Of a DNA stretch of 20,218 nucleotides, positions 3,857-19,366 are shown piece by piece. Below the pieces are notes generated by a model. It ran no database searches. It was not told the origin of the DNA and was given only the letters and a program-made list of their open reading frames with translations. Position 1 is the stretch's first letter; each line of letters opens with the position of its first letter. The stretch is from a virus, in IMG/VR virus record IMGVR_UViG_3300025280_000242, positions 1 through 20,218 of that record. The stretch is one strand, 5' to 3'. The position numbers and the translations under genes are program-made.

Positions 3857-4602
3857 TGGCCGCAGGAAAGTTCGGACCGTCGAGCGGGATTATGTTAATT
3901 GATGGTTACAATGTCCTGTCTAATAAAGTCACGGCACTTACTGAAAAAAATACTTCGGCCATGTCGGACGGGACGGGACTCGGGGACAGTGCCTATGAGA
4001 CTTTCCCCGTCGGCATCACGACTAGCGAAGTGACACAAGAGGGAGGCTACTTCGACACGACCGCGCTGTACTCGCATGCCGCGTTTTCGGGCAGTATACC
4101 GACGTCTCCACAATCCACAGCGCGGGTGATGTGTCTTGGGTTTGCGGGACAGACAACCGGCTATCCGATGGTCGGGTATGAAGGGACATTTTCTGACAGC
4201 TATGAAGTCGTGGCGTCTCTCGGAGACTTACAGAAAGCCAACGTCACATACGCCATCACCGGCAAACGCAGCGCCGGCCTCATCTTGCAACCGTTAGCGG
4301 CTAAAACCGCCGATTGGAATACACAAAGCAGCTCGGTTGATAACTCGGCATCGTCAGCGAACGGCGGTGAGGGGTTCATACAGTGCACAGCAGCCACAGG
4401 ATTCTCGGCGTTTGTCGGAACGATTCAACACTCGGCTGATAACATCTCGTTCGCTTCGTTGATAGATTTTAGTGACAACGTCACCGCACCTTTCGCAGAA
4501 CGAAAGACAGTATCTTCAACCGTCAATCGCTACCTGGCATTCTCAGGAAATGTGACGGGGACAGGCTCGATCACAGTGTTCGCCGCGTTCGCTCGTGGTT
4601 GA
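3856..4602 (+). CDS. Major tail (tube) protein with C-terminal beta-sandwich domain
   Basis: A 248-residue tail-tube candidate. Residues 1 to about 145 (MAAGKFGPSSGIMLIDGYNV, the GLGDSAYETFPVGITTSEV segment at about 41-59, GGYFDTTALYSHAAF) match the pattern of siphophage tube subunits. Residues about 150-248 form a second domain carrying SSVDNSASSANGGEG, IQHSADNISFASLIDF and a final strand GSITVFAAFARG; this add-on would project from the tube surface, as similar C-terminal domains do in other siphophages. The following gene encodes a shorter relative without the add-on, sharing MAxGKxGPxS and the LGDSAxExxPxGxTT motif. Which of the two forms the bulk of the tube is not decidable from sequence. 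Confidence 0.7.
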   Translation: MAAGKFGPSSGIMLIDGYNVLSNKVTALTEKNTSAMSDGTGLGDSAYETFPVGITTSEVTQEGGYFDTTALYSHAAFSGSIPTSPQSTARVMCLGFAGQTTGYPMVGYEGTFSDSYEVVASLGDLQKANVTYAITGKRSAGLILQPLAAKTADWNTQSSSVDNSASSANGGEGFIQCTAATGFSAFVGTIQHSADNISFASLIDFSDNVTAPFAERKTVSSTVNRYLAFSGNVTGTGSITVFAAFARG

Positions 4603-4627
4603 TAATTAGGAAAAAAAGGAGAAAAAA

Positions 4628-5779: not shown

Positions 5780-8700
5780 TTAACGTGGGCGTTCTTCAAG
5801 CCGTGTTGAAGTTACGCGACCAGATGACGCCTGCACTACGCAAGGCTCAGGCCTCTCTGAAAACAACTGGCGCACGGATGACGGCATTCGGTTCGTCGAT
5901 GATGTCGGCTGGCAGTGCTATGACGATGGGTCTAACGTTACCTATTGTTGGCTTAGGCGCAGCAGCGGCCACTACGTTTGCCACTTTTGAAAAAGGTATG
6001 AACCGCGTCAAGGCGGTGACAGGCGCTACGGTTCCAGAATTTGCCGCGCTCACTGATCAAGCGAAAGACCTAGGCGCGACCACCAAATTTACGGCGAACG
6101 AAGCGGCAGATGCGATGGGGTTTCTCGGGATGGCAGGATTTAAAACTGCCGAGATTCTCGGAGCCATGCCGAATGTCTTAGAGCTGGCGGCTGCTGCAAT
6201 GTTAGATGTCGGGCAAGCCGCAGACATTACGTCGAACATTCTCACCGGCTACGGACAAACTACCGACGACCTTGCCCATACGAACAACGTTCTCGTGAAG
6301 GCATTCACGTCAGCGAATACCGATCTCACGCAGTTGGGTCAAGCCTTCAAGTATGCCGGTCCTGTGGCGAATAGTGCAGGCGTGGCGTTTGAATCCACAG
6401 CGGCGGCGCTAGCCTTACTTGGCAACGCAGGCATCCAGGGATCGATGGCGGGCACCTCACTTCGTGGCGCTTTGACACGGCTCATGAATCCCGCAGGAAA
6501 AGCCAGAACCTTGATCGAGTCCCTCGGGTTGAATGTCATGACCACCACGGGAGAAATGAAACCCTTCGAGGAAATCATTCGACAGCTTGAAGCCAGTGGT
6601 GCCACGACCGCACAGATGATGCAGATTTTCGGGCAACGCGCCGGGCCTGCGATGAGCGCCTTAGTGAGTCAAGGGTCTGAGGCCTTAAAAGAGATGACGG
6701 AAGAACTCACAAACGTCGGCGACATTGCCTCCGAGATTGCGGAAACGCAGATGGAAGGGTTAGCCGGTACATGGACGCTCTTCACCTCAGCACTAAGCGG
6801 AGCTTTAATTGAGATCGGAGAAGTCCTCTCGCCCTTTCTTACCAAGTTTCTTGAACTCGGGATCAAGATGTCAACTTGGATACGCGTGAAGTTAGTTCCC
6901 GCATTCCAAAACCTATCCCCGTGGTTACAGAAAACCATTTTAGGGTTTGCAGCAATCGTTGCAGGGACTGGTCCGCTCCTGGTTGCGTTGGGTGCTATCT
7001 CGATGGCGGTGGGTGGTCTCGCTACCGTGATCGGGGCGATATCACTTCCAGTTACGGCCACGGTATTAGCTATTGGAGGACTTATCACCGCGTTCGCCTT
7101 TTGGGGCGAAGAGATTTCTATTTTTCTTCGTGAATACATCGAGCCATGGATTGCGTCTATGGACAAGTTGAAAGCAATATTTACGGAGTTCACATTTGAA
7201 GAGGCAGAAGCGGCAGCCGAGGCTCGCAAGTTCCAACTAGAAATCGACAAGCTGCCGAAGGTACTGAACAAAGTAGAAAGAGCTGCCGCAGAAGCAGCCA
7301 AAGAAGTTGAAAAACTCGCACTGGCAGAAGAAGAAGCGGCGAATCGTGCCGAATATCTTTCCGGTACCAACACCGTCATGATGGAGGGGATTGAAGTACT
7401 CCAAGAGGCGACAGCCTTTACCGCTGGATTAACTCTCGAGATAGACCTCATGGCTCAACGGGCTGAGGCAGCTGCCGAGAAACAAAAACTACTCGACCTC
7501 GAAACGAAACGAGCGGCCCTGGCAGCCGATGCTCAGACAAAAGCCTTAGCTGACCAGATCGAACAGTGGAACACGGGTGGCATACCGGCTATGGAGCACG
7601 CCATCGCAGCCTATCGGAGCTGGGGAGGCACACTCGATCAACTAACCAAGCAAGAGTTGAGTGACTTCAACAAAACGGTAGAAGCTGGGATAGAAAGATT
7701 ACGGCTACAAGGGGAGGCGGTGCCGTTAGAGGAAAACCAGTTGTATATCGAATCACTCGACAAGATGAATAAGAAAGTCACCACGTTGACTGAAACTCTG
7801 GCACACCTTCCGAAACATTTTCCAGGCATTGAAGAGATGCCGTTGGTACCGTTAGAAAAGATGATGAAAGGCATCGGAGAAATTCACAATGAGGCACTGA
7901 ACGCGCCAAGTATTTTTTCGCAATGGGGCGACAGTGTTAAGGGCGGCTTCAAGAGTTTTTGGCAGGGCATAACCGGAGGCACGGGGAAGATTAGCGGGAT
8001 GTTCCAGCAGCTCGGCGCGGGTGTAATGCAGGGGTTTGGGCAGATTGTCGCAGGCGGTATGACGTCCTTAGTCAACAAGAGTGTCGAGATGGGTATGAAG
8101 GCGATCACGGGACTCTTCAAAAAGTCCACGGCACTTTCAGACAGGATGAAAGAACATAGCATCGCTGTAGAAGAGGCGACGGCGAAGCGTAAAGAACTCG
8201 AAGCCACCGAGGCGCAAGCCTTGATGGATCTCCAGAACAATTGGCGCGGCGCAGAAGAAGCAGCCGAGCGGTATAATATCGGACTCAAATCACTTGGCGA
8301 TACCTACCAGGCAGCGAAGTGGTCAGAAGAAACGCAACAGCTTGCCGACGACTGGGAACTCCTCGCGCTACACGGGAAGAACCTGAACACCATTGCCAAG
8401 AAAATGGCTCCGACCGTGCAAGAGATGATCGAGAAATACCAAGAAGCTGGTATTGCGATTCCGGACAACATGAAGACCCCTATTGAAAAGATGGTTGAGC
8501 TAGGTTTGTTGACGGATGCCGAAGGGAACGCCCTCACCGATATGTCCACCTTAGATTTCGCCACGCCCCTCGTCGAGCAGATGGGCGCGTTGGTCGAATC
8601 CGTTCAGTTGCTTGTCGATACAATGTCAGGGCAGTTGATGCCACAGATGAATGATGTAAACAATTTCAAATTTGACGACAAAACCATCCGAGTGAGTGCC

Positions 8701-8926: not shown

Positions 8927-10504
8927 ATGCCAGGAGTTGCCGCCGTTGCCGCCGTCGAGGTAGAGCTAGCCGGAGCTGGCAGCGGCTGGACAGCACTCAC
9001 TGCTGACGTCCGGATCGGGTTGCAGCCTGTCGAGGTGTCATATGGTATTCGGTCCTCGTCTCCTCTGGACCGTATCGCGACCACAGGCACGATGACCTGG
9101 GCGCTCAACAACTCCGCATCGAACAGTGGGACCGCTGCAGGATACTACAGCCCTGGACACACCAACGCCCGATCAGGATTTGATATCGGGATAGGTGTGC
9201 GGCTCAAGGTGACGTATGGTGGAACGAGCTACTATAAATTTCGTGGAACGCTCATCAGTGTCGATCCGACCGCAGGAAAAACACAACAAGCCGTGATCTG
9301 CCAAGCGGTCGACTGGATGGACGAAGCAGCACGTACCCGCATACGAGGGATCGGTATTCAAACCAATCAACGCAGCGATCAAATCATCGACACGATTGTG
9401 ACCTCTTCAGTCACGCGACAACCTGCGGCGAAGAGTCTTGCCACTGGACAAAGTACATTCGCCATTGCCCTAGATAATATGAAGGACACGCAGACGCCCG
9501 TGCTCCAGGCACTGAGTGATGTCACAACATCCGAGCTGGGCTATCTCTACGTAAAAGGCGACACCAGTACTGGCGGGGTCTTGCGTTTTGAAGACCGTCA
9601 TGCCCGTCCCAAATTCGGCGCAGCTGTAGGTAGCTTCGACGAGACCATGACAGCGCTAGATGTCCGCAGAGATAGAGCTGATGTGGCCAACCGTGTCTAC
9701 GTGATCGTGCACCCAAGGACGACGGCTGGATCTGCATCCACACTCTGGGAGCTTACGACCACAAATTCTGTGCCGAGCATTCCAGCCGGTGAGACGATTG
9801 AGATTACGGCACCCTTTCGGGAGGCCTCGATCAAAAGTTACCGCGTTGCGGGGACGAGCGTGGTAACACCTGTTAGCGGCACTGACTGGATAGCCAACAC
9901 GGCTGAGGATGGAACCGGCTCCGTGATTACCTCTGACGTCGCCGTTTCACTTTCCACGACAGCAGCCAACGCCGTGACATTTAACATCGTCAATAACGGA
10001 ACGGTGACCGCCTACCTCACGACCCTTCAAGTCCGTGGGACACAAGTCGCAGACATTTCCGAAACGGTGATGGCCGCCGCAGACAGCACCAGCCAAACCA
10101 CCTACGGAGAAGTCGATGTGCGGGTAGATATGAAGTACGAAAGCAGCACGGGAAGTTTCGCCTTCAACATCGCCGAATGGTTACTGGCCTCCATGAAAGA
10201 TCCGAGGTTTTTGATTAACCGTCTGAGCCTCATCGGGAACACCTCAGCCGCATTGATGGTCCAGGCTTTGGCGCGGGAACCTGGCGACAAGATTACACTC
10301 GCCGAGAGTTTTACGGGCATCTCGGAAACATTTGGCGCTGCCGCGTTCGGGTGGTTCATCAACGGAGTCGATCTGACCGTTGGACCAGCTTCGACGATTC
10401 ACGTTTCCTGGATATTAGCACCTGCCGATCAATCTTCTTTTTGGATACTTGATCAAGTCGGCGCAAGTGAACTCGGCCTTACAACTGTGCTAGGATTTGC
10501 CTAA
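8927..10504 (+). CDS. Tail tip / baseplate hub-like protein
   Basis: A 525-residue protein directly after the tape measure gene, where distal tail or hub proteins sit. The N-terminal quarter (residues about 25-120) has the beta-barrel pattern of a tail-tip ring protein, including VSYGIRSSSPLDRIATTGTM and KFRGTLISVDP. The middle part (about 130-250) has hub-like features such as RSDQIIDTIVTSS and DVTTSELGYLYVKGDTSTGG. The extreme C-terminus FWILDQVGASELGLTTVLGF is a short motif found at the end of many phage tail proteins. The start at 8927 lies two bases after the tape measure stop with only a weak GCGGG-like site, so it probably depends on coupled translation. No peptidase or glycosidase motif is evident. 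The precise role (Dit-like or hub-like) is uncertain. Confidence 0.62.
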   Translation: MPGVAAVAAVEVELAGAGSGWTALTADVRIGLQPVEVSYGIRSSSPLDRIATTGTMTWALNNSASNSGTAAGYYSPGHTNARSGFDIGIGVRLKVTYGGTSYYKFRGTLISVDPTAGKTQQAVICQAVDWMDEAARTRIRGIGIQTNQRSDQIIDTIVTSSVTRQPAAKSLATGQSTFAIALDNMKDTQTPVLQALSDVTTSELGYLYVKGDTSTGGVLRFEDRHARPKFGAAVGSFDETMTALDVRRDRADVANRVYVIVHPRTTAGSASTLWELTTTNSVPSIPAGETIEITAPFREASIKSYRVAGTSVVTPVSGTDWIANTAEDGTGSVITSDVAVSLSTTAANAVTFNIVNNGTVTAYLTTLQVRGTQVADISETVMAAADSTSQTTYGEVDVRVDMKYESSTGSFAFNIAEWLLASMKDPRFLINRLSLIGNTSAALMVQALAREPGDKITLAESFTGISETFGAAAFGWFINGVDLTVGPASTIHVSWILAPADQSSFWILDQVGASELGLTTVLGFA

Positions 10505-13438: not shown

Positions 13439-13623
13439 TGCCTAAAGGTGGAAAATCATACCGGTTCAAAAGTCAAGGCTACAACAGCCGACTCGATGAA
13501 AGTTTGGGCGCGAGACGTGGGAAAAAATCCCAAAGCTTTAAAGCACGCCGTGATGAATCGAAAGGCATGAGTAAAGCCAGAGGCGGTCGTGCGTATGGTG
13601 CCGTGCGAACAATGGACCGCTAG
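13438..13623 (+). CDS. Small strongly basic protein at the end of the late operon
   Basis: A 61-residue protein, very rich in Arg, Lys, Gly and Ser (MPKGGKSYRFKSQGYNSRLD; GARRGKKSQSFKARRDESKG). It would be disordered and nucleic-acid-binding or membrane-surface-binding in character. I have the impression that similar short proteins occur in other phage genomes, but no function is known to me. It has an AAAGGAGG ribosome binding site just before its TAATG overlap start. Its TAG lies inside CTAG at 13620-13623, the same tetramer that ends the opposing SNF2 gene, so it is the last gene of the rightward structural operon in this window. Confidence 0.6.
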   Translation: MPKGGKSYRFKSQGYNSRLDESLGARRGKKSQSFKARRDESKGMSKARGGRAYGAVRTMDR

Positions 13624-15149
13624 TCAGTGCGTTGAATCTTGAGCGCCTCAAGCCACGCCGAGGCCGTCCAGTCAGCCAGGGATTTTTTCTTGCGTAAGGC
13701 TTTTAAGACGAGATGATCGATGGTCCGTTGGCCTCTCGGACCTTCGGTGATGAAATCAAAATACGAGACGGCGCGGGTTTGTCCTGGTCGATGATTGCGG
13801 TCCTCGCTCTGTTGGCGAATATTGAGTGAGTAGGAGTTGCTCAAGTAGATGACATTTGGTGCAGCGGCGAGGGTAATGCCAAAGGCTCCGGTCTGAGGCG
13901 TCCCCAGGACTACTGCCGCGCCTTTGGGTGCCGTCTGAGGGTGTAGGAGCCTCAGCGCGTGCTCGCGCTCTCCCGTGGACGTCTGGCCCCACAGAAGACC
14001 GATCTCTATGGGGAGCGGTTTCAGTGCCTCGGCAAGTCGTGCCACATCAGCGCGGAATTGTGACCACACCACAAGCTTGTACGTTGGATCTTCTTCTAGG
14101 CGCTCGGTCAGCCATGCCACCAGCGCATCAATCTTTTCTGAACCGGTCTCTTGAGGTTTCTCGCCAACGCCTCCTACATGCCCCGAGGTGAGTTGCGACA
14201 GGCGAATCAGTTTCACCACTGCTTGCTTCGCGATGGATACATCCCCCGAGGCTAATTGCACAATCGCATGCTCTCGCATTTCTTTGTATAAGCGCCACGA
14301 CTCAGGCGTTAACGTCACGGTGTGAATGACGGGATCAAGCTTTTCAGGAAGATCAAGACAATCTTTCTTTTCTCGTCGCAACGTGTGCGGTTTGAGGCGT
14401 TGTTGCAAGTCTTCAAGGTTGCGGAACTCGATCACATGTTTACCTTGAAACCCGCCCATCACACAATACCGAGATCGGAATTGCAACAAGTTCAAATACT
14501 CCCCTGGTCGGTCACTCAAAATCGAGGGGTGTAGGAGGTTTGCTTGTGAGAGCAAGTCCACAGGACTATGAGCAATCGGTGTGCCGGTCATTAGGACGGC
14601 GCGCCCGGAGCGCTTGCGTAGCCACATGCACGCACGGGTTTGTTTCGCCGTGGGATTTTTGACCGCCGTGGACTCGTCAAGCACTAAGAGTGTTCGAGTA
14701 TCGCATTGGTCCATGAAGCGTTTCAGACGTTCGGTGATAAACCGAGAGCGCGACCGCAGGCCATACCGCAGCCATTCGTAATTCGTGATTATCCACTCCA
14801 GCTCGGGATCGTTTTTCTTGGCCCGCACATCGCCCCAGTGGTAGGAATGGGAGCGCGTGCCGCAGACGTTAATATAGTTTGACAACGTCGGCCAGCAATG
14901 CGTCACGAGTTGTCCAAGTTCGATATCCGCCCAGTTGTCCCGCGTCGCGGCGGTTGTGACGACGAGCACGCGATCAATCATCCCTTGCGAATAGAGCATC
15001 GAAGCGGAATCGATGACGGTCTTCGTCTTCATCATGCCCATCTCGTCCGTCAGAAAGACATACGGCTCGCGGACAATCTTTTCCACCGCGCTCTTCTGGT
15101 GCGCTTTTGGTGGAAATGGACACGCGGTAAAATCTAATCTCTGCCCCAT
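13620..15149 (-). CDS. SNF2-type superfamily 2 helicase
   Basis: A 509-residue two-domain ATPase of the SNF2-like group used by phages in replication or recombination. Visible motifs: KAHQKSAVEKI near residue 15 (Q-motif region), TDEMGMMKTKTV at 34-45 (motif I), LLVLDESTAVKN at 154-165 (motif II, DES in place of DEAH), LMTGTPI at 186-192 (motif III), LVVWSQFRADVARLAEAL at about 359-376 (motif IV region), GTPQTGAFGITLAAAPNVI at about 416-434 (motif V), and QSEDRNHRPGQT at 447-458 (motif VI). The canonical DEMGLGKT is DEMGMMKT here, with Met in place of the Gly before Lys41. The start overlaps the end of the primase gene by 16 bases. It is the last gene of the leftward module. Confidence 0.85.
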   Translation of the reverse strand: MGQRLDFTACPFPPKAHQKSAVEKIVREPYVFLTDEMGMMKTKTVIDSASMLYSQGMIDRVLVVTTAATRDNWADIELGQLVTHCWPTLSNYINVCGTRSHSYHWGDVRAKKNDPELEWIITNYEWLRYGLRSRSRFITERLKRFMDQCDTRTLLVLDESTAVKNPTAKQTRACMWLRKRSGRAVLMTGTPIAHSPVDLLSQANLLHPSILSDRPGEYLNLLQFRSRYCVMGGFQGKHVIEFRNLEDLQQRLKPHTLRREKKDCLDLPEKLDPVIHTVTLTPESWRLYKEMREHAIVQLASGDVSIAKQAVVKLIRLSQLTSGHVGGVGEKPQETGSEKIDALVAWLTERLEEDPTYKLVVWSQFRADVARLAEALKPLPIEIGLLWGQTSTGEREHALRLLHPQTAPKGAAVVLGTPQTGAFGITLAAAPNVIYLSNSYSLNIRQQSEDRNHRPGQTRAVSYFDFITEGPRGQRTIDHLVLKALRKKKSLADWTASAWLEALKIQRTD

Positions 15150-17143
15150 CCCAGTACCGCCTTTCGTGCGGGTTTTGGTGTTGTTTTACACTGGCATCGC
15201 TCAGCTTGTAGATCACACTGTAGACATATACTCATTGTGATACGACGATACCCAACTGCTTGCATCGCAGAGGCCACAAACTTATTCCCGGCCAGCGTTC
15301 TCCGGTCAATCGGTACCGCGAGAAAATTCCAGATGTCCTCGGGCGTGAGGCGAACGCCAGGCTCCCTCGCGGAATACTCTTCGGCGATAGCTTCCACCCA
15401 CGGATGCGAGAAGACGCGCTGACTTTGTTGTGACGATGCTGCCCTCCAGAGACTCGGATCGAGACGGATCGGTTCTCCTTGTTCCTCTCGCACACATGCC
15501 TCTGCCCAGAGCTGATCACGGTTGGTTCTCAGCCACGAGACATCGAACCCTTTAATGGACACCGGCCAGAACCTCCGGTTGCCGGTGATGTCACTCAAAT
15601 ACTGATTGGAATTTGTAGTACCGATGATAATGAATTGCCGTGGACGCTCGACGGGGATACGTGCATAGGCCAGCCGCACCGGTCCATCCACCTGACGGCT
15701 CAACATGCTTTTCAGGGTTTCATGATCAGAGGCACGCATTCCGGCCAGGTCGCTAGATTCCACAATCCACTTTCCTGCGGTCCGCTCGATGATGGATTTC
15801 GAATCTGCATTAAGCGGCAGGTCGTCCGAGAACCATTTAGGATCGTGACAAAGGAGTTGGATGCCGGTGCTTTTGTTCTTCCCTTGGTCAGCTTGCTCTA
15901 AGACCACCATCTCATCAAATTTACACCCAGGTTGACGAATACGCCGCACCGCCGCAAGAAGCACAAGCGCCGACACCGCACGGATGTAAGGTGTGTTGGC
16001 CGCCTGTGCGGAAACTGTTAGCCAGGTATCAATTCGTGGTTCTCCGTCCCACGTCAACGTCTTGAAGTAATCAAGGATCGGGTGAAACGACGATTGCCGC
16101 GCCACCGCTTGCACCACCTCAAAGAAAAATTGCTGCGTCGGTCGGAATTGTTCGCTAAGGTCTACATCAATCCACAGGTCCGTCGCGATGTCGTCATCCA
16201 GGAGGCCCGCATAGCTGGTCCCCCGAAACGCCGAGTTATAGTTGATGAAGGGTTTTCGTGCGAACGAATCATAAGTCAGATCCGCACCCAACCGTGTCAA
16301 CGCTCGCGTAATATTCATGATGCTGCGCGCATCGGGAAACCCTTTGCTGTTGAGTGCATAGGCGTTGTCACTGGTCGCCGGTGTCCTACCCCAGAGTTTG
16401 ATCAGTGACTCGGCGAGTCCACCCGTAGCGATCTCCTTGAGGGTTTTTCCGCCTGTAATAGGCTCATCATCAGAGTGTGCAAAGGTTGACGAGACCTCCC
16501 GCAAGCGGTCGGTCCACTTATCATCCCGGCTCCATTGCGCTGCCTCACGAATCATTAACACGGATTCTTCCTCAGTAACACCCCGCTGCTTCAGGGTGCC
16601 AGCGAGCGCGAGCGTCCAATCATGTCTTGCTCCACTTGGCGCATAGTGGCGAGCAATGAGCACCGCACTAGCTAGCAGCTTTACGCACCGTATAAGCACA
16701 GGTGCATCCACTTCACCAGGTTTGCCAAGGTCACTCTCCCACGCCAATACTTCACCGCTCGGATGCTCTGACGGCGGGGCCATGTCTTGATGATTCGAGC
16801 GGATCTCCACAAGCGTTGTCCGATCAGAGTCTCGGTAGGCAATCGTTTTAGGTATGACTGATTTATATATCCGCTTCGACCGTGGTTTGGATGGGCGTCC
16901 GTAGACGCTCGGTGTGGTGGGTAAAAACTCGTCGGCCATCTTTACCGCTTCAGGGGAATCCAGATCGACAAAGACCAACCCATCGACGGACCGTAAGCCA
17001 ATGTTGTCGCCGTCTTGGAAATCCTCGGCGGTAAACTCCAGCCCAATCCATCCGGCCTTGCTAACTCTCTTCGACTTTTTCACGAGTGGCACAATCTGCC
17101 ACCCGTGGTCCAGGTACGTCTGTGCGAATTTTTTGATATTCAT
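15134..17143 (-). CDS. Primase-polymerase / VapE-type helicase fusion
   Basis: A 669-residue bifunctional replication protein. The N-terminal part (about 1-180) is a prim-pol domain: AQTYLDHGWQIVPLVKKSK, then GLVFVDLDSPEA with the DxD pair at residues 60-62, and VEIRSNHQDMAPPSEHPSGE at about 112-131. Residues about 345-560 are the VapE/P4-type helicase: FHPILDYFKTLTWDGEPRID, a degenerate Walker A DQGKNKST at 419-426, WIVESSDLAGM at 459-469, FIIIGTTN at 504-511 and GNRRFWPV at 521-528. A C-terminal tail carries C640-x-x-C643 and C650-x-C652, a possible zinc knuckle. The fusion would make primers and unwind the phage replication fork. The start has no obvious ribosome binding site and lies inside a zinc-ribbon ORF. 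Confidence 0.85.
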   Translation of the reverse strand: MNIKKFAQTYLDHGWQIVPLVKKSKRVSKAGWIGLEFTAEDFQDGDNIGLRSVDGLVFVDLDSPEAVKMADEFLPTTPSVYGRPSKPRSKRIYKSVIPKTIAYRDSDRTTLVEIRSNHQDMAPPSEHPSGEVLAWESDLGKPGEVDAPVLIRCVKLLASAVLIARHYAPSGARHDWTLALAGTLKQRGVTEEESVLMIREAAQWSRDDKWTDRLREVSSTFAHSDDEPITGGKTLKEIATGGLAESLIKLWGRTPATSDNAYALNSKGFPDARSIMNITRALTRLGADLTYDSFARKPFINYNSAFRGTSYAGLLDDDIATDLWIDVDLSEQFRPTQQFFFEVVQAVARQSSFHPILDYFKTLTWDGEPRIDTWLTVSAQAANTPYIRAVSALVLLAAVRRIRQPGCKFDEMVVLEQADQGKNKSTGIQLLCHDPKWFSDDLPLNADSKSIIERTAGKWIVESSDLAGMRASDHETLKSMLSRQVDGPVRLAYARIPVERPRQFIIIGTTNSNQYLSDITGNRRFWPVSIKGFDVSWLRTNRDQLWAEACVREEQGEPIRLDPSLWRAASSQQSQRVFSHPWVEAIAEEYSAREPGVRLTPEDIWNFLAVPIDRRTLAGNKFVASAMQAVGYRRITMSICLQCDLQAERCQCKTTPKPARKAVLGWGRD

Positions 17144-17237
17144 AGGTACGACTACAGACTAAGCAGAGGGTGAACAGTTTTCCGATCTCCAATAAGCTCG
17201 GATCATCATTGGAACAGTACGGACAGGGTTTAGACAT
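17061..17237 (-). CDS. Small zinc-ribbon protein overlapping the primase start
   Basis: A 58-residue protein beginning MSKPCPYCSNDDPSLLEIGK, with CPYC at residues 5-8 and CLVC at 25-28, a typical four-cysteine zinc ribbon with a 16-residue spacer. An in-frame ATG at 17255 would add six residues. The chosen ATG at 17237 overlaps the upstream gene by eight bases, as its neighbours do. Its last 27 codons run over the first 83 bases of the primase gene in another frame, so the C-terminus may matter little. Zinc fingers are often fused to or partnered with phage primases, so a primase-loading or template-recognition role is a reasonable guess. Confidence 0.55.
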   Translation of the reverse strand: MSKPCPYCSNDDPSLLEIGKLFTLCLVCSRTYEYQKIRTDVPGPRVADCATREKVEES

Positions 17238-17910
17238 CCGGTACCAGAGGTTCATGCGGTGTATCTGTCGCTTTCAACGCTACATGAAGATCATGAAACC
17301 GTCCCGCCTGCTCATCGGTAGCTGTGCCGTTGTTTCTGAACTTCCACGTCATGTAGGTACCTTCTTTCGAGGTGGCCTGCACACTCGTTACCGTATACAC
17401 GCCAGTATAAATTGCACTACCGCGCATCATGATCAACCCGTTCAACGACTTCGCGGCTTTAATACCTGACCGTGCTAGGGAGAGCGCGATTACTTCTTCT
17501 GAGTCATAGAGAAAGAGCACGTAGTCGTAGAACTTGGTCGCCTGCGGGTGCTCTCCATTCGGCCCCCACTGCAGGCGCGGATCGGTCAGCGGCACGTGCG
17601 GATCAAGCACCCCACCGCCGTCACTGAGCGGAGCAAACTCTATCGCTCGGGGTGGATGTGATACCAGGACACTAAAGGTCAACGGCCCTGGACCATACAC
17701 GAGGCCTGAGACAGAATTGAACAAATCCCCGACGCCTAATCCGTCGATGTATTCTGGATTGGCTTTGTTGAGCTGTGGACTCATGGCTTGCGCCAAGACC
17801 AGGCGCGGCATATGGACGTCGTCGCTGGTCAAATGTTCGGTCCCTTCAGCGGGGCCGCGCCCCATGACGGCGGGGACGCTTCCCGTGGTGGTCGTGAGTG
17901 TTTTAGACAT
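17230..17910 (-). CDS. Replication-module protein, possible ssDNA-binding
   Basis: A 226-residue protein with a disordered N-terminus (MSKTLTTTTGSVPAVMGRGP) followed by a compact beta-rich region: DDVHMPRLVLAQAMSPQLNK, GLGVGDLFNSVSG, a Gly/Pro loop (LSDGGGVLDPHVPLTDPRLQ), then YDYVLFLYD, a helix around LARSGIKAAKSLNGLIMMRG and final strands (GVYTVTSVQATSKEGTYMTW). The pattern 'PRLxLxQxxS...GxxxGDxFNS' occurs in a family frequently found beside phage primases and helicases and proposed in some phages as single-strand DNA-binding; I cannot confirm that here. Ribosome binding site AAGGAG precedes it. It lies directly upstream of the zinc ribbon and primase. Confidence 0.55.
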   Translation of the reverse strand: MSKTLTTTTGSVPAVMGRGPAEGTEHLTSDDVHMPRLVLAQAMSPQLNKANPEYIDGLGVGDLFNSVSGLVYGPGPLTFSVLVSHPPRAIEFAPLSDGGGVLDPHVPLTDPRLQWGPNGEHPQATKFYDYVLFLYDSEEVIALSLARSGIKAAKSLNGLIMMRGSAIYTGVYTVTSVQATSKEGTYMTWKFRNNGTATDEQAGRFHDLHVALKATDTPHEPLVPDV

Positions 17911-18130
17911 TTTTTTCTCCTTGGGTTACGAAGTTATACCGCTCGACTGGGACGGCTACTAGATACCGCTCGGGTTCGCTTTTATCCGGGTCCATATTCG
18001 TAGCATAGGGATATTCAGAATCATGCGCTCTTAGATCCTTGATAAACTCCTTTCGATCCTTCTCCGTCGGAAACGTGAAAATCTCACACTGTTCTTCGAC
18101 CGTGCGTTTTACTTTGATTGTGCTAGACAT
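17903..18130 (-). CDS. Small conserved-looking protein, unknown
   Basis: A 75-residue protein: MSSTIKVKRTVEEQCEIFTF, a helix TEKDRKEFIKDLRAHDSEYP, and a C-terminal strand-rich YLVAVPVERYNFVTQG. It has alpha/beta character without recognisable motifs. It has a clear AAGGAG upstream of the ATG (18128-18130), and its end overlaps the next gene by eight bases, so it is well supported as a gene. It could be an accessory to the neighbouring replication proteins, given its position between a DNA-binding-type repeat protein and the putative ssDNA-binding protein; no function is assigned. Confidence 0.6.
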   Translation of the reverse strand: MSSTIKVKRTVEEQCEIFTFPTEKDRKEFIKDLRAHDSEYPYATNMDPDKSEPERYLVAVPVERYNFVTQGEKNV

Positions 18131-18819
18131 TAGCTTCTCCTTTTTTTGTTGCGTCTATTTATAACCAGGATTCCGTGTTTCTTTCGTGCCTTCCGAGAAT
18201 TCGCGCTTATCAGATATCCACACGCGCACCGCATAGGCTGCGGTTTTCCAAGCCAGTCGTTCCAGTTCACCCACTCCGAAGGATAAACAACATGAGGACT
18301 CGTAGGGATGCCCTTATGACGGTCGCTCGACTTGCACCACTTGCGGAAAGCTGCGACATTAGATAGGTTTAACCGTCTGACGTAGTCTCGTGCTTCCTCA
18401 AAAGGGAGCCGCCGAGACGCCCAGTCAGTTCGGCAGTAAGTGCCAGACTTCCCAAGCCAATCGAACCAGCTCACCCAGTCCGAACGGTACACATACTCAG
18501 GATTCGTAGGGATGCCCGTATGACGTTCGTTCGACTTCGTCCACTTCAGGAACACCACACGAGATGGAAACTCTAAAGCTCTAACGTAGGCTCTGGCCTC
18601 GTCAAAAGGTATCCAGGCTGTCCCGGCCTTCTTTTTCCCTAGCCAGTCATACCAGTCTACCCACTCAGAACGATAAGCGCGTCTAGGTACTAGGGGGATT
18701 CGCTCTAGTCGTTCGTCCGACCGTCCCCACTTCTTAAAAGCTGCGACATTAGGTAGGTTTATCCGTCTGATGCAGTCTCTGGCTTCCTCAAAAGGGAGCC
18801 AATATCTTTCGGCAGGCAT
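18130..18819 (-). CDS. Triple 'phage-integrase repeat' protein
   Basis: A 229-residue protein made of three tandem units of exactly 56 residues at 7-62, 69-124 and 137-192, each running PF(E/D)EAR, then (F/L)xKW, then S(D/N)(E/D)R(L/H), then IP, then a Y-x-S-(E/D)WV segment and ending DWLGK. This matches my memory of the phage-integrase repeat unit, found beside or inside recombinases and in proteins of algal viruses and aquatic bacteria, thought to contact DNA. No integrase catalytic residues are present; the only addition is a basic tail (CACGYLISANSRKARKKHG and NRRNKKRRS). A stand-alone DNA-binding role is likely. The DNA of repeats 1 and 3 is nearly identical over 64 bases, indicating recent duplication or conversion. 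Confidence 0.72.
   Translation of the reverse strand: MPAERYWLPFEEARDCIRRINLPNVAAFKKWGRSDERLERIPLVPRRAYRSEWVDWYDWLGKKKAGTAWIPFDEARAYVRALEFPSRVVFLKWTKSNERHTGIPTNPEYVYRSDWVSWFDWLGKSGTYCRTDWASRRLPFEEARDYVRRLNLSNVAAFRKWCKSSDRHKGIPTSPHVVYPSEWVNWNDWLGKPQPMRCACGYLISANSRKARKKHGILVINRRNKKRRS
18347..18410 (-). repeat. Direct repeat copy A inside the triple-repeat gene
   Basis: Encodes the start of repeat 3 (residues about 137-157). It is 64 bases long and identical to 18737-18800 except at six positions, about 91 percent by direct comparison. The middle protein repeat is much more diverged at the DNA level over the equivalent stretch, so units 1 and 3 share a more recent history. Confidence 0.8.
18737..18800 (-). 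repeat. Direct repeat copy B inside the triple-repeat gene
   Basis: Partner of the copy at 18347-18410, encoding the start of repeat 1. Both contain the shared run CTTCCTCAAAAGGGAGCC (plus-strand sense). The repeat lies in frame, so unequal recombination between copies would add or remove whole 56-residue units without breaking the gene. Confidence 0.8.
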
Positions 18820-19301
18820 TAGCTTCGCCCCTTTCTGAGAACAACGGTGGTTTGTTTATAAGTTTCGATACCATCAGGTTCGGCTAGTCCATCCATGAGT
18901 CGTTCCGCAACCAGCGCGTTCGTAGATTGCCACGGCAAGACCAGCGCAGCCTCTAACCCGTGGTCAATGCACCACTGGCGAAACGCCGCACGATCCTGGA
19001 CTCGTGCGTAAGGTTTGACTTGCGTGGAGACAGACGCACCCGATTCCAATTTAATCGTGGTGACGCCCGCTTCTTCGAAGGCCTCCGTCAAGAGTTGCTC
19101 ATGCGCGACGAGTCGCACGTTAATTCTTGAGAGCGCTTTTTTGACGGTTTCCTTTTCGGCGCGGATCTTAATGAGCGCGTTAGCAAGCTTGGCGGGTGTA
19201 GTGTCCTGAACCTCGCGCTTGATGGCATCCACGCGGTCTTGGAAGTCGGATGGTTCGGGTTTTGTCGTCAGGTGGGCAGCGATATTCGTATATTTTCCCA
19301 T
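18819..19301 (-). CDS. Coiled-coil phage protein, first gene of the leftward module
   Basis: A 160-residue protein starting MGKYTNIAAHLTTKPEPSDF. Residues about 20-80 form a long charged helix or coiled coil (LANALIKIRAEKETVKKALS, VAHEQLLTEAFEEAG). The rest is a compact domain with VSTQVKPYARVQDRAAFRQW, CIDHGLEAALVLPW and LAEPDGIETYKQTTVVLRKG. This layout recurs in phage early regions, but I cannot name a function. The ATG at 19301 is chosen because AGAGGGG precedes it by about nine bases; a longer form from a TTG at 19337 has no ribosome binding site. Its TAA overlaps the ATG of the triple-repeat gene by one base. It would be transcribed from the promoter-like region at 19367-19395. Confidence 0.6.
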   Translation of the reverse strand: MGKYTNIAAHLTTKPEPSDFQDRVDAIKREVQDTTPAKLANALIKIRAEKETVKKALSRINVRLVAHEQLLTEAFEEAGVTTIKLESGASVSTQVKPYARVQDRAAFRQWCIDHGLEAALVLPWQSTNALVAERLMDGLAEPDGIETYKQTTVVLRKGRS

Positions 19302-19366
19302 ATAAAAGCCCCTCTTTTTCGGCTTACGTGTGAACAACGTGAAAAATGTCGCCGTTGTTAGTTGTC

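Follow-up and report, generated by a model that had tools for sequence, protein, structure and literature searches.

A small gene of a tailed phage encodes an array of three repeats of the type known in Pfam as INT_rpt (PF14882). The gene was probably inserted between two genes that adjoin each other in a related phage, and its product probably binds DNA. We consider it somewhat probable that the array is an inserted gene, mobile and free-standing in the manner of homing-endonuclease genes yet with no nuclease, and that it works as a sequence-specific DNA-binding array with a regulatory or target-marking role. The DNA analysed here, referred to as the window, is 20,218 bases long and constitutes one whole virus record, whose structural genes encode a P22-type coat protein and a tape measure protein.

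The array gene and its neighbourhood

The gp33-like gene, the 75-residue ORF, the gp34-like gene and the primase-helicase and SNF2 genes all lie on the strand of the array gene (Table 1). The first-pass annotation had described the array within an operon with primase-helicase and SNF2 genes, and Pfam does find both on that strand. A search for close phage DNA for the window returned none, and a tblastn search of phage records gave no homologue of the gp33-like gene; the gp34-like gene has homologues in 37 phage records, each at less than 60% identity. An identical copy of the array is carried by a second IMG/VR contig (3300009620_000141), and the loci L001, L002, L004, L127, L150 and L217 of our collection all duplicate either the window's own record or a single contig identical to it.

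Table 1. Features of the array gene and its surroundings in the window
Feature	Position	Strand	Details
SNF2-type helicase	13620..15149	-	Pfam
Prim-Pol / VapE-type primase-helicase	15134..17143	-	Pfam
Pam3 gp34-like gene	17230..17910	-	Pfam 94 bits, cut-off 27
75-aa ORF, downstream of array	17903..18130	-	kept in L218 (59%)
Direct repeat GAAGCTAATG	18128..18137	-	copy at array stop / next ORF start
Array ORF, three-repeat stand-alone protein	18130..18819	-	ATG start, 229 aa, no internal stops
Basic C-terminal tail, one CxC motif	18133..18243	-	residues 193-229, low-confidence structure
Repeat 3	18244..18417	-	residues about 135-192
Repeat 2	18448..18618	-	residues 68-124; model helices 72-82, 87-94, 107-110, 118-122
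Repeat 1	18634..18804	-	residues 6-62; model helices 10-20, 25-32, 45-48, 56-60
Direct repeat GAAGCTAATG	18817..18826	-	copy at gp33 stop / array start
Pam3 gp33-like gene (DUF7307), upstream	18819..19337	-	Pfam 36.2 bits, cut-off 27

Sequence and predicted structure of the repeats

Roughly three quarters of the 229-residue protein is taken up by the three repeats, each about 56 residues long, and the remainder consists of linkers and the basic C-terminal tail. Their pairwise identities are 28/56, 35/55 and 32/55, and the local alignment scores of the repeat pairs (172-195) lie far above the maximum of 59 reached in 2000 shuffles per pair, which bears out the initial description of three such repeats filling most of the protein. 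The conserved positions are kept in all three, with dN lower than dS between them. On the DNA the repeats are spaced by 186 and 204 bp. The first 26 codons of repeat 3 are nearest to repeat 1 (64/78 nt) and the remainder to repeat 2 (69/87 nt); repeat 3 thus looks mosaic, and this pattern suggests that repeats of this kind may recombine and change in number.

An AlphaFold model built on 79 sequences, namely the window protein and 78 of the 107 segments listed, has a mean pLDDT of 86.8 and shows four short helices per repeat; its pTM of 0.53 means that the arrangement of the repeats relative to one another is not fixed in the model. Among solved structures, the sequence search found no relative of the array, and comparison of the model with the PDB gave a best E of 6.0, and no chain reached Z of 2. 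In a viral structure library there were two matches at E ≤0.001, a 309-residue protein and a Klosneuvirus SF2 helicase; further giant-virus helicases rank lower, consistent with the repeat survey described below.

Family membership

The array and INT_rpt share the pattern IPxxP...Y...W..W.DWLG; the array differs from the family in scoring under its cut-off, in having no integrase and in standing alone. Against the whole array protein, PF14882 gives 17.6 bits (E = 0.0046) vs a cut-off of 26.5 bits, and the score in the own-genome search is 13.6 bits. Membership is instead reached through relatives that pass the cut-off: the L003 protein is 39% identical over the repeats (E 1e-38 and 7e-38) and scores 38.5 bits for INT_rpt, and the L083 protein is 37% identical to the array (E 7e-40) and scores 47.5 bits. 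The assignment to the phage-integrase repeat type made in the first-pass annotation therefore falls short in the direct profile search and stands by way of these two proteins. The best blastp match to the array, L192 (39%), is likewise a stand-alone array and not a nuclease, a point against the homing-endonuclease reading proposed below.

A Pfam scan of the array protein found no recombinase, nuclease or other domain over cut-off, the tyrosine recombinase catalytic domain PF00589 gave no match, and searches against PHROG and NCBIfam were also without a match. Together with the relatives, the scan upholds the original view of a stand-alone integrase-type repeat array without a recombinase. That the protein might be a truncated integrase was rejected, as the recombinase domain is absent and there is no space for one in the frame or between the abutting neighbours. 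The family itself is named in a modelling table of PMC8078820, and that table entry gives it no function.

Distribution of the repeat and its partner domains

Viral and prokaryotic genome collections were scanned for DNA patterns encoding the end of the repeat, beginning from a profile of ten repeats. Most loci were chosen by DNA patterns on the W..W.DW end, and the proportions given here apply to this sample alone. With an enlarged profile of 395 repeats, 216 loci yielded at least 116 non-identical repeat-bearing frames, 29 of the 116 being cut by a contig end, and at least 419 repeats scoring 20 bits or more. Among 50 genome stretches with the repeat, many come from ammonia-oxidising archaea and Verrucomicrobia. 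A simple rule, which asks for fewer than 60 residues flanking the array at each end and for a frame uncut by a contig end, and which counts short broken frames too, gives 37 stand-alone arrays among the 116 frames listed, and 25 of these, including that of the window virus, have three or more repeats.

Pfam domains were tallied at E ≤0.01 for 72 of the 116 frames, those left out being mainly short frames, repeated stand-alone frames and the three phage-record loci L005, L006 and L007. The tally gave 45 frames with INT_rpt, 24 with Helicase_C, 23 with ResIII, 11 with Mrr_cat_2 and 6 with GIY-YIG. The L003 protein combines four repeats with a GIY-YIG domain of 33.9 bits (cut-off 22.6), whose core residues are present by eye. 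GIY-YIG also exceeds the cut-off in L079 and L099 and falls under it in L104, L039 and L018. Other partners are an HNH domain in L083 (23.4 bits, cut-off 21.4), an endonuclease VII PHROG in L005 (2.6e-18) and the homing-endonuclease PHROG phrog_9084 in L033 (1.7e-30). A possible LAGLIDADG partner occurs in the one-repeat protein of L159, where the Pfam family scores 18.1 bits, under its cut-off of 23.1, and a PHROG named endonuclease matches at 3.5e-18. In L188 and L182 an Mrr-type nuclease and an SF2 helicase are followed by an INT_rpt array at the C-terminus, and in the archaeal loci L183 and L202 an SF2 helicase has repeats at its N-terminal end.

Phage_integrase does not occur among the 25 Pfam families listed for the 72 repeat proteins, beyond which five further families can have at most one member each, nor in any of the five repeat-bearing virus records tested. 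The repeat had been introduced in the initial annotation as recombinase-associated, a description that this sample does not bear out. INT_rpt, in spite of its integrase name, appears to be portable, occurring with at least four types of nuclease and with SF2 helicases. The label "integrase" is a poor guide to the partners of the repeat, which in the frames surveyed are nucleases, SF2 helicases or none. We found no paper in the open-access literature that treats INT_rpt as a module shared by nucleases and helicases.

Several of these loci have features of their own. The proteins of L188 and L182 resemble a single-chain restriction enzyme in which the array would be the recognition part, and those of L183 and L202 unite an INT_rpt array, an SF2 helicase and Methyltransf_8 in a single frame, an unusual mix that may represent a restriction- or repair-type system. 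Proteins in which a C-terminal region comes after one to three repeats are encoded in L006 (4590-5717) and L007 (4779-5708), and likewise in L115, L116, L151, L154 and L161, several of the group being from large phages; the C-terminal regions are alike by eye and match no family. In RAS14 and XacN1 such genes have similar surroundings. One 308-kb contig (L054, L103 and L157) carries several array genes, one of which matches the treble-clef zinc fingers DUF4379 and DUF723; here the gene family has expanded within a single large virus.

Probable insertion between the gp33-like gene and the 75-residue ORF

The closest relative that holds this region is L218, whose primase is 69% identical to that of the window. 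Its gene order is DNA polymerase, orf19460, gp33, small ORF, gp34, primase and SNF2, without the array, and the end of gp33 and the start of the small ORF overlap in an intact TAATG junction. When the array is removed from the window, the joined flanks give back the same TAATG overlap. L219 and L225 also keep gp33, gp34 and primase and have no array, so that related genomes differ in its presence, at one and the same site in the case of L218. A search with the primase led to 80 loci, many of them short fragments, and a significant repeat protein was found in one only, L217, which belongs to the identical virus.

The array is flanked by the 10-bp direct repeat GAAGCTAATG, which occurs twice in the window vs 0.01 expected, both times at exact gene ends, for a motif that was picked post hoc. 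The sequence belongs to the region of ribosome binding and gene start, and a looser 24-nt context of it recurs before gp34; for these reasons it may be convergent and not a scar of insertion. Synonymous codon usage of the array (-1.849) falls slightly below the values of 40 fragments from other genes matched to it in size (-1.843 to -1.619), and its GC and GC3 are ordinary. Given the same gene order without the array in L218, the intact TAATG and the flanking GAAGCTAATG, the array is probably an inserted gene. Its loss in L218, L219 and L225, in place of a gain in the phage of the window, would also yield the present pattern, and we regard it as the less probable course.

Variable columns of the repeat

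The core of the repeat is conserved across the 419 repeats, and columns such as 12, 16, 21, 31, 35 and 48 often carry a basic residue. At columns 22-24, 27, 28, 42 and 44-46 the difference within an array nearly equals that between arrays, whereas most other variable columns are more alike within an array. These columns were first picked from the same data; a fairer split test, in which 50 genome arrays served to choose the columns and 30 viral arrays to test them, gave a mean within/between ratio of 0.95 vs 0.83 for other columns, and six of the nine top columns were common to both sets. Mapped onto the model by residue number alone, they lie in helix 2 and about the IPxxP turn.

The pN/pS ratio is 0.75-1.16 at the variable columns vs 0.19-0.41 elsewhere. 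Positive or diversifying selection on them is not supported, with values near 1 and not clearly above it. Columns that are relaxed or mildly diversifying would fit specificity positions and would equally fit exposed positions under no constraint, and saturation at fast sites could lie behind part of the contrast. The occurrence of variable positions at fixed places is a sequence pattern hinting at modular recognition.

Proposed function and alternative explanations

The same repeat is an accessory part of several unrelated nucleases and helicases, and the array is therefore probably DNA-binding; a repeat that accompanies enzymes which cut or move DNA and are unrelated in origin would be a DNA-recognition module. 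The first-pass annotation had likewise taken the protein for a DNA-binding array, which these relatives support as probable. The open-access literature searched yielded neither an experiment on DNA binding by INT_rpt nor a structure of it bound to DNA. In the mechanism that we propose, the array gene came with, or descends from, a homing-type gene, and it would now be a mobile, free-standing, homing-endonuclease-like insert without a nuclease of its own. The three modules would bind double-stranded DNA sequence-specifically with one contact per repeat, the conserved basic residues holding the backbone and the variable positions of helix 2 and of the IPxxP turn region choosing the sequence. Alone, by analogy with I-TevI, the array would most probably act in the infected cell as a DNA-binding regulator or a target-marking protein.

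This proposal has parallels in phage T4. As described in PMC2988022, the free-standing endonuclease genes of T4 sit between conserved genes, and the DNA-binding domain of I-TevI is by itself a transcriptional repressor. Like the seg and mob genes covered there (PMC2988022), the array is inserted between conserved genes, and in its relatives the module is fused with GIY-YIG or HNH domains. Unlike them, the array protein has no homing-endonuclease nuclease domain, which is present in relatives, and so it cannot home by itself. It also resembles the I-TevI DNA-binding domain and NUMOD, which are small DNA-binding modules set like beads on a string and varied between nucleases (PMC2988022, PMC1564403), but the array is one repeat type in tandem and the Pfam scan gave no NUMOD match.

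Four other explanations were weighed against this proposal. If the array were the remnant of a homing endonuclease that has lost its nuclease domain and is drifting to extinction, the nuclease-linked relatives, the shortness of the insert and the missing catalytic domain would follow. However, the ORF is intact, the repeats retain their conserved positions with dN below dS, the abutting neighbours leave no nuclease debris and stand-alone arrays are common in the survey, and we judge this explanation unlikely. The array might also be a DNA-targeting subunit that cooperates in trans with a nuclease whose gene lies elsewhere, in the phage or in the host, an arrangement suggested by the fusion of the same module to many nucleases; it appears rather improbable, with no GIY-YIG, HNH or Mrr match among 10 proteins scanned, nine of them from part of the ORFs of L150. 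Small inserted phage genes often act in host takeover. This background, and the lack of a fold match arguing for DNA, would favour an anti-defence protein or another protein- or RNA-binding repeat protein, in which the repeat is a scaffold beside nucleases. Yet most of the recognisable partners that it has in relatives are enzymes that cut or translocate DNA, and we see such a function as quite improbable.

A role in the replication operon, perhaps in origin recognition, had been suggested at the outset. A factor whose repeats recognise iterons and load the primase-helicase would suit an array-like protein that shares strand and neighbourhood with the primase-helicase and SNF2 genes. But L218, L219 and L225 maintain gp33, gp34 and the primase without it, the one array reported by Tandem Repeats Finder is a minor one of 9 bp within the gene at 8927-10504, and a close search of three gaps, a weak test, showed no iteron-like set. 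Related phages have the same replication genes but no array, and the stretches searched showed no iterons; origin recognition is accordingly disfavoured, and we hold it to be very improbable.

Beyond the proposed mobile insert, it is a speculative and rather doubtful extension that INT_rpt arrays are a general system of modular DNA recognition comparable to TALE. Each unit of about 56-65 residues would read a short piece of DNA through the nine columns named above, and arrays of varied length would be fitted to nucleases or helicases, or stand alone, in phages, large viruses, bacteria and ammonia-oxidising archaea. The likeness to TALE lies in tandem modules whose scaffold is conserved and whose hypervariable positions recur at set places, in proteins not known to be related in sequence; the difference is that the code of the array is hypothetical, its variable columns having pN/pS near 1. 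Should arrays indeed read DNA through these variable positions, modular DNA-binding proteins would become available from a new natural source, and the window protein, with three repeats and a predicted fold of high confidence, is a convenient small test case.

Additional observations on the phage

Within the gp33-like gene, 22 nt at 18968-18989 are 82% like a part of the array repeat, both encoding AAFR.WC, and the likeness is probably due to chance. The contig L150, identical to the window's virus across their overlap, has a short ORF at 4196-4621 that looks nuclease-like by eye and matches no Pfam family. At 5875-6759 it encodes a TET-associated glycosyltransferase that scores 100.5 bits for PF20691, with a weak ParB_N match next to it, and from this gene the phage of the window may modify its DNA bases.
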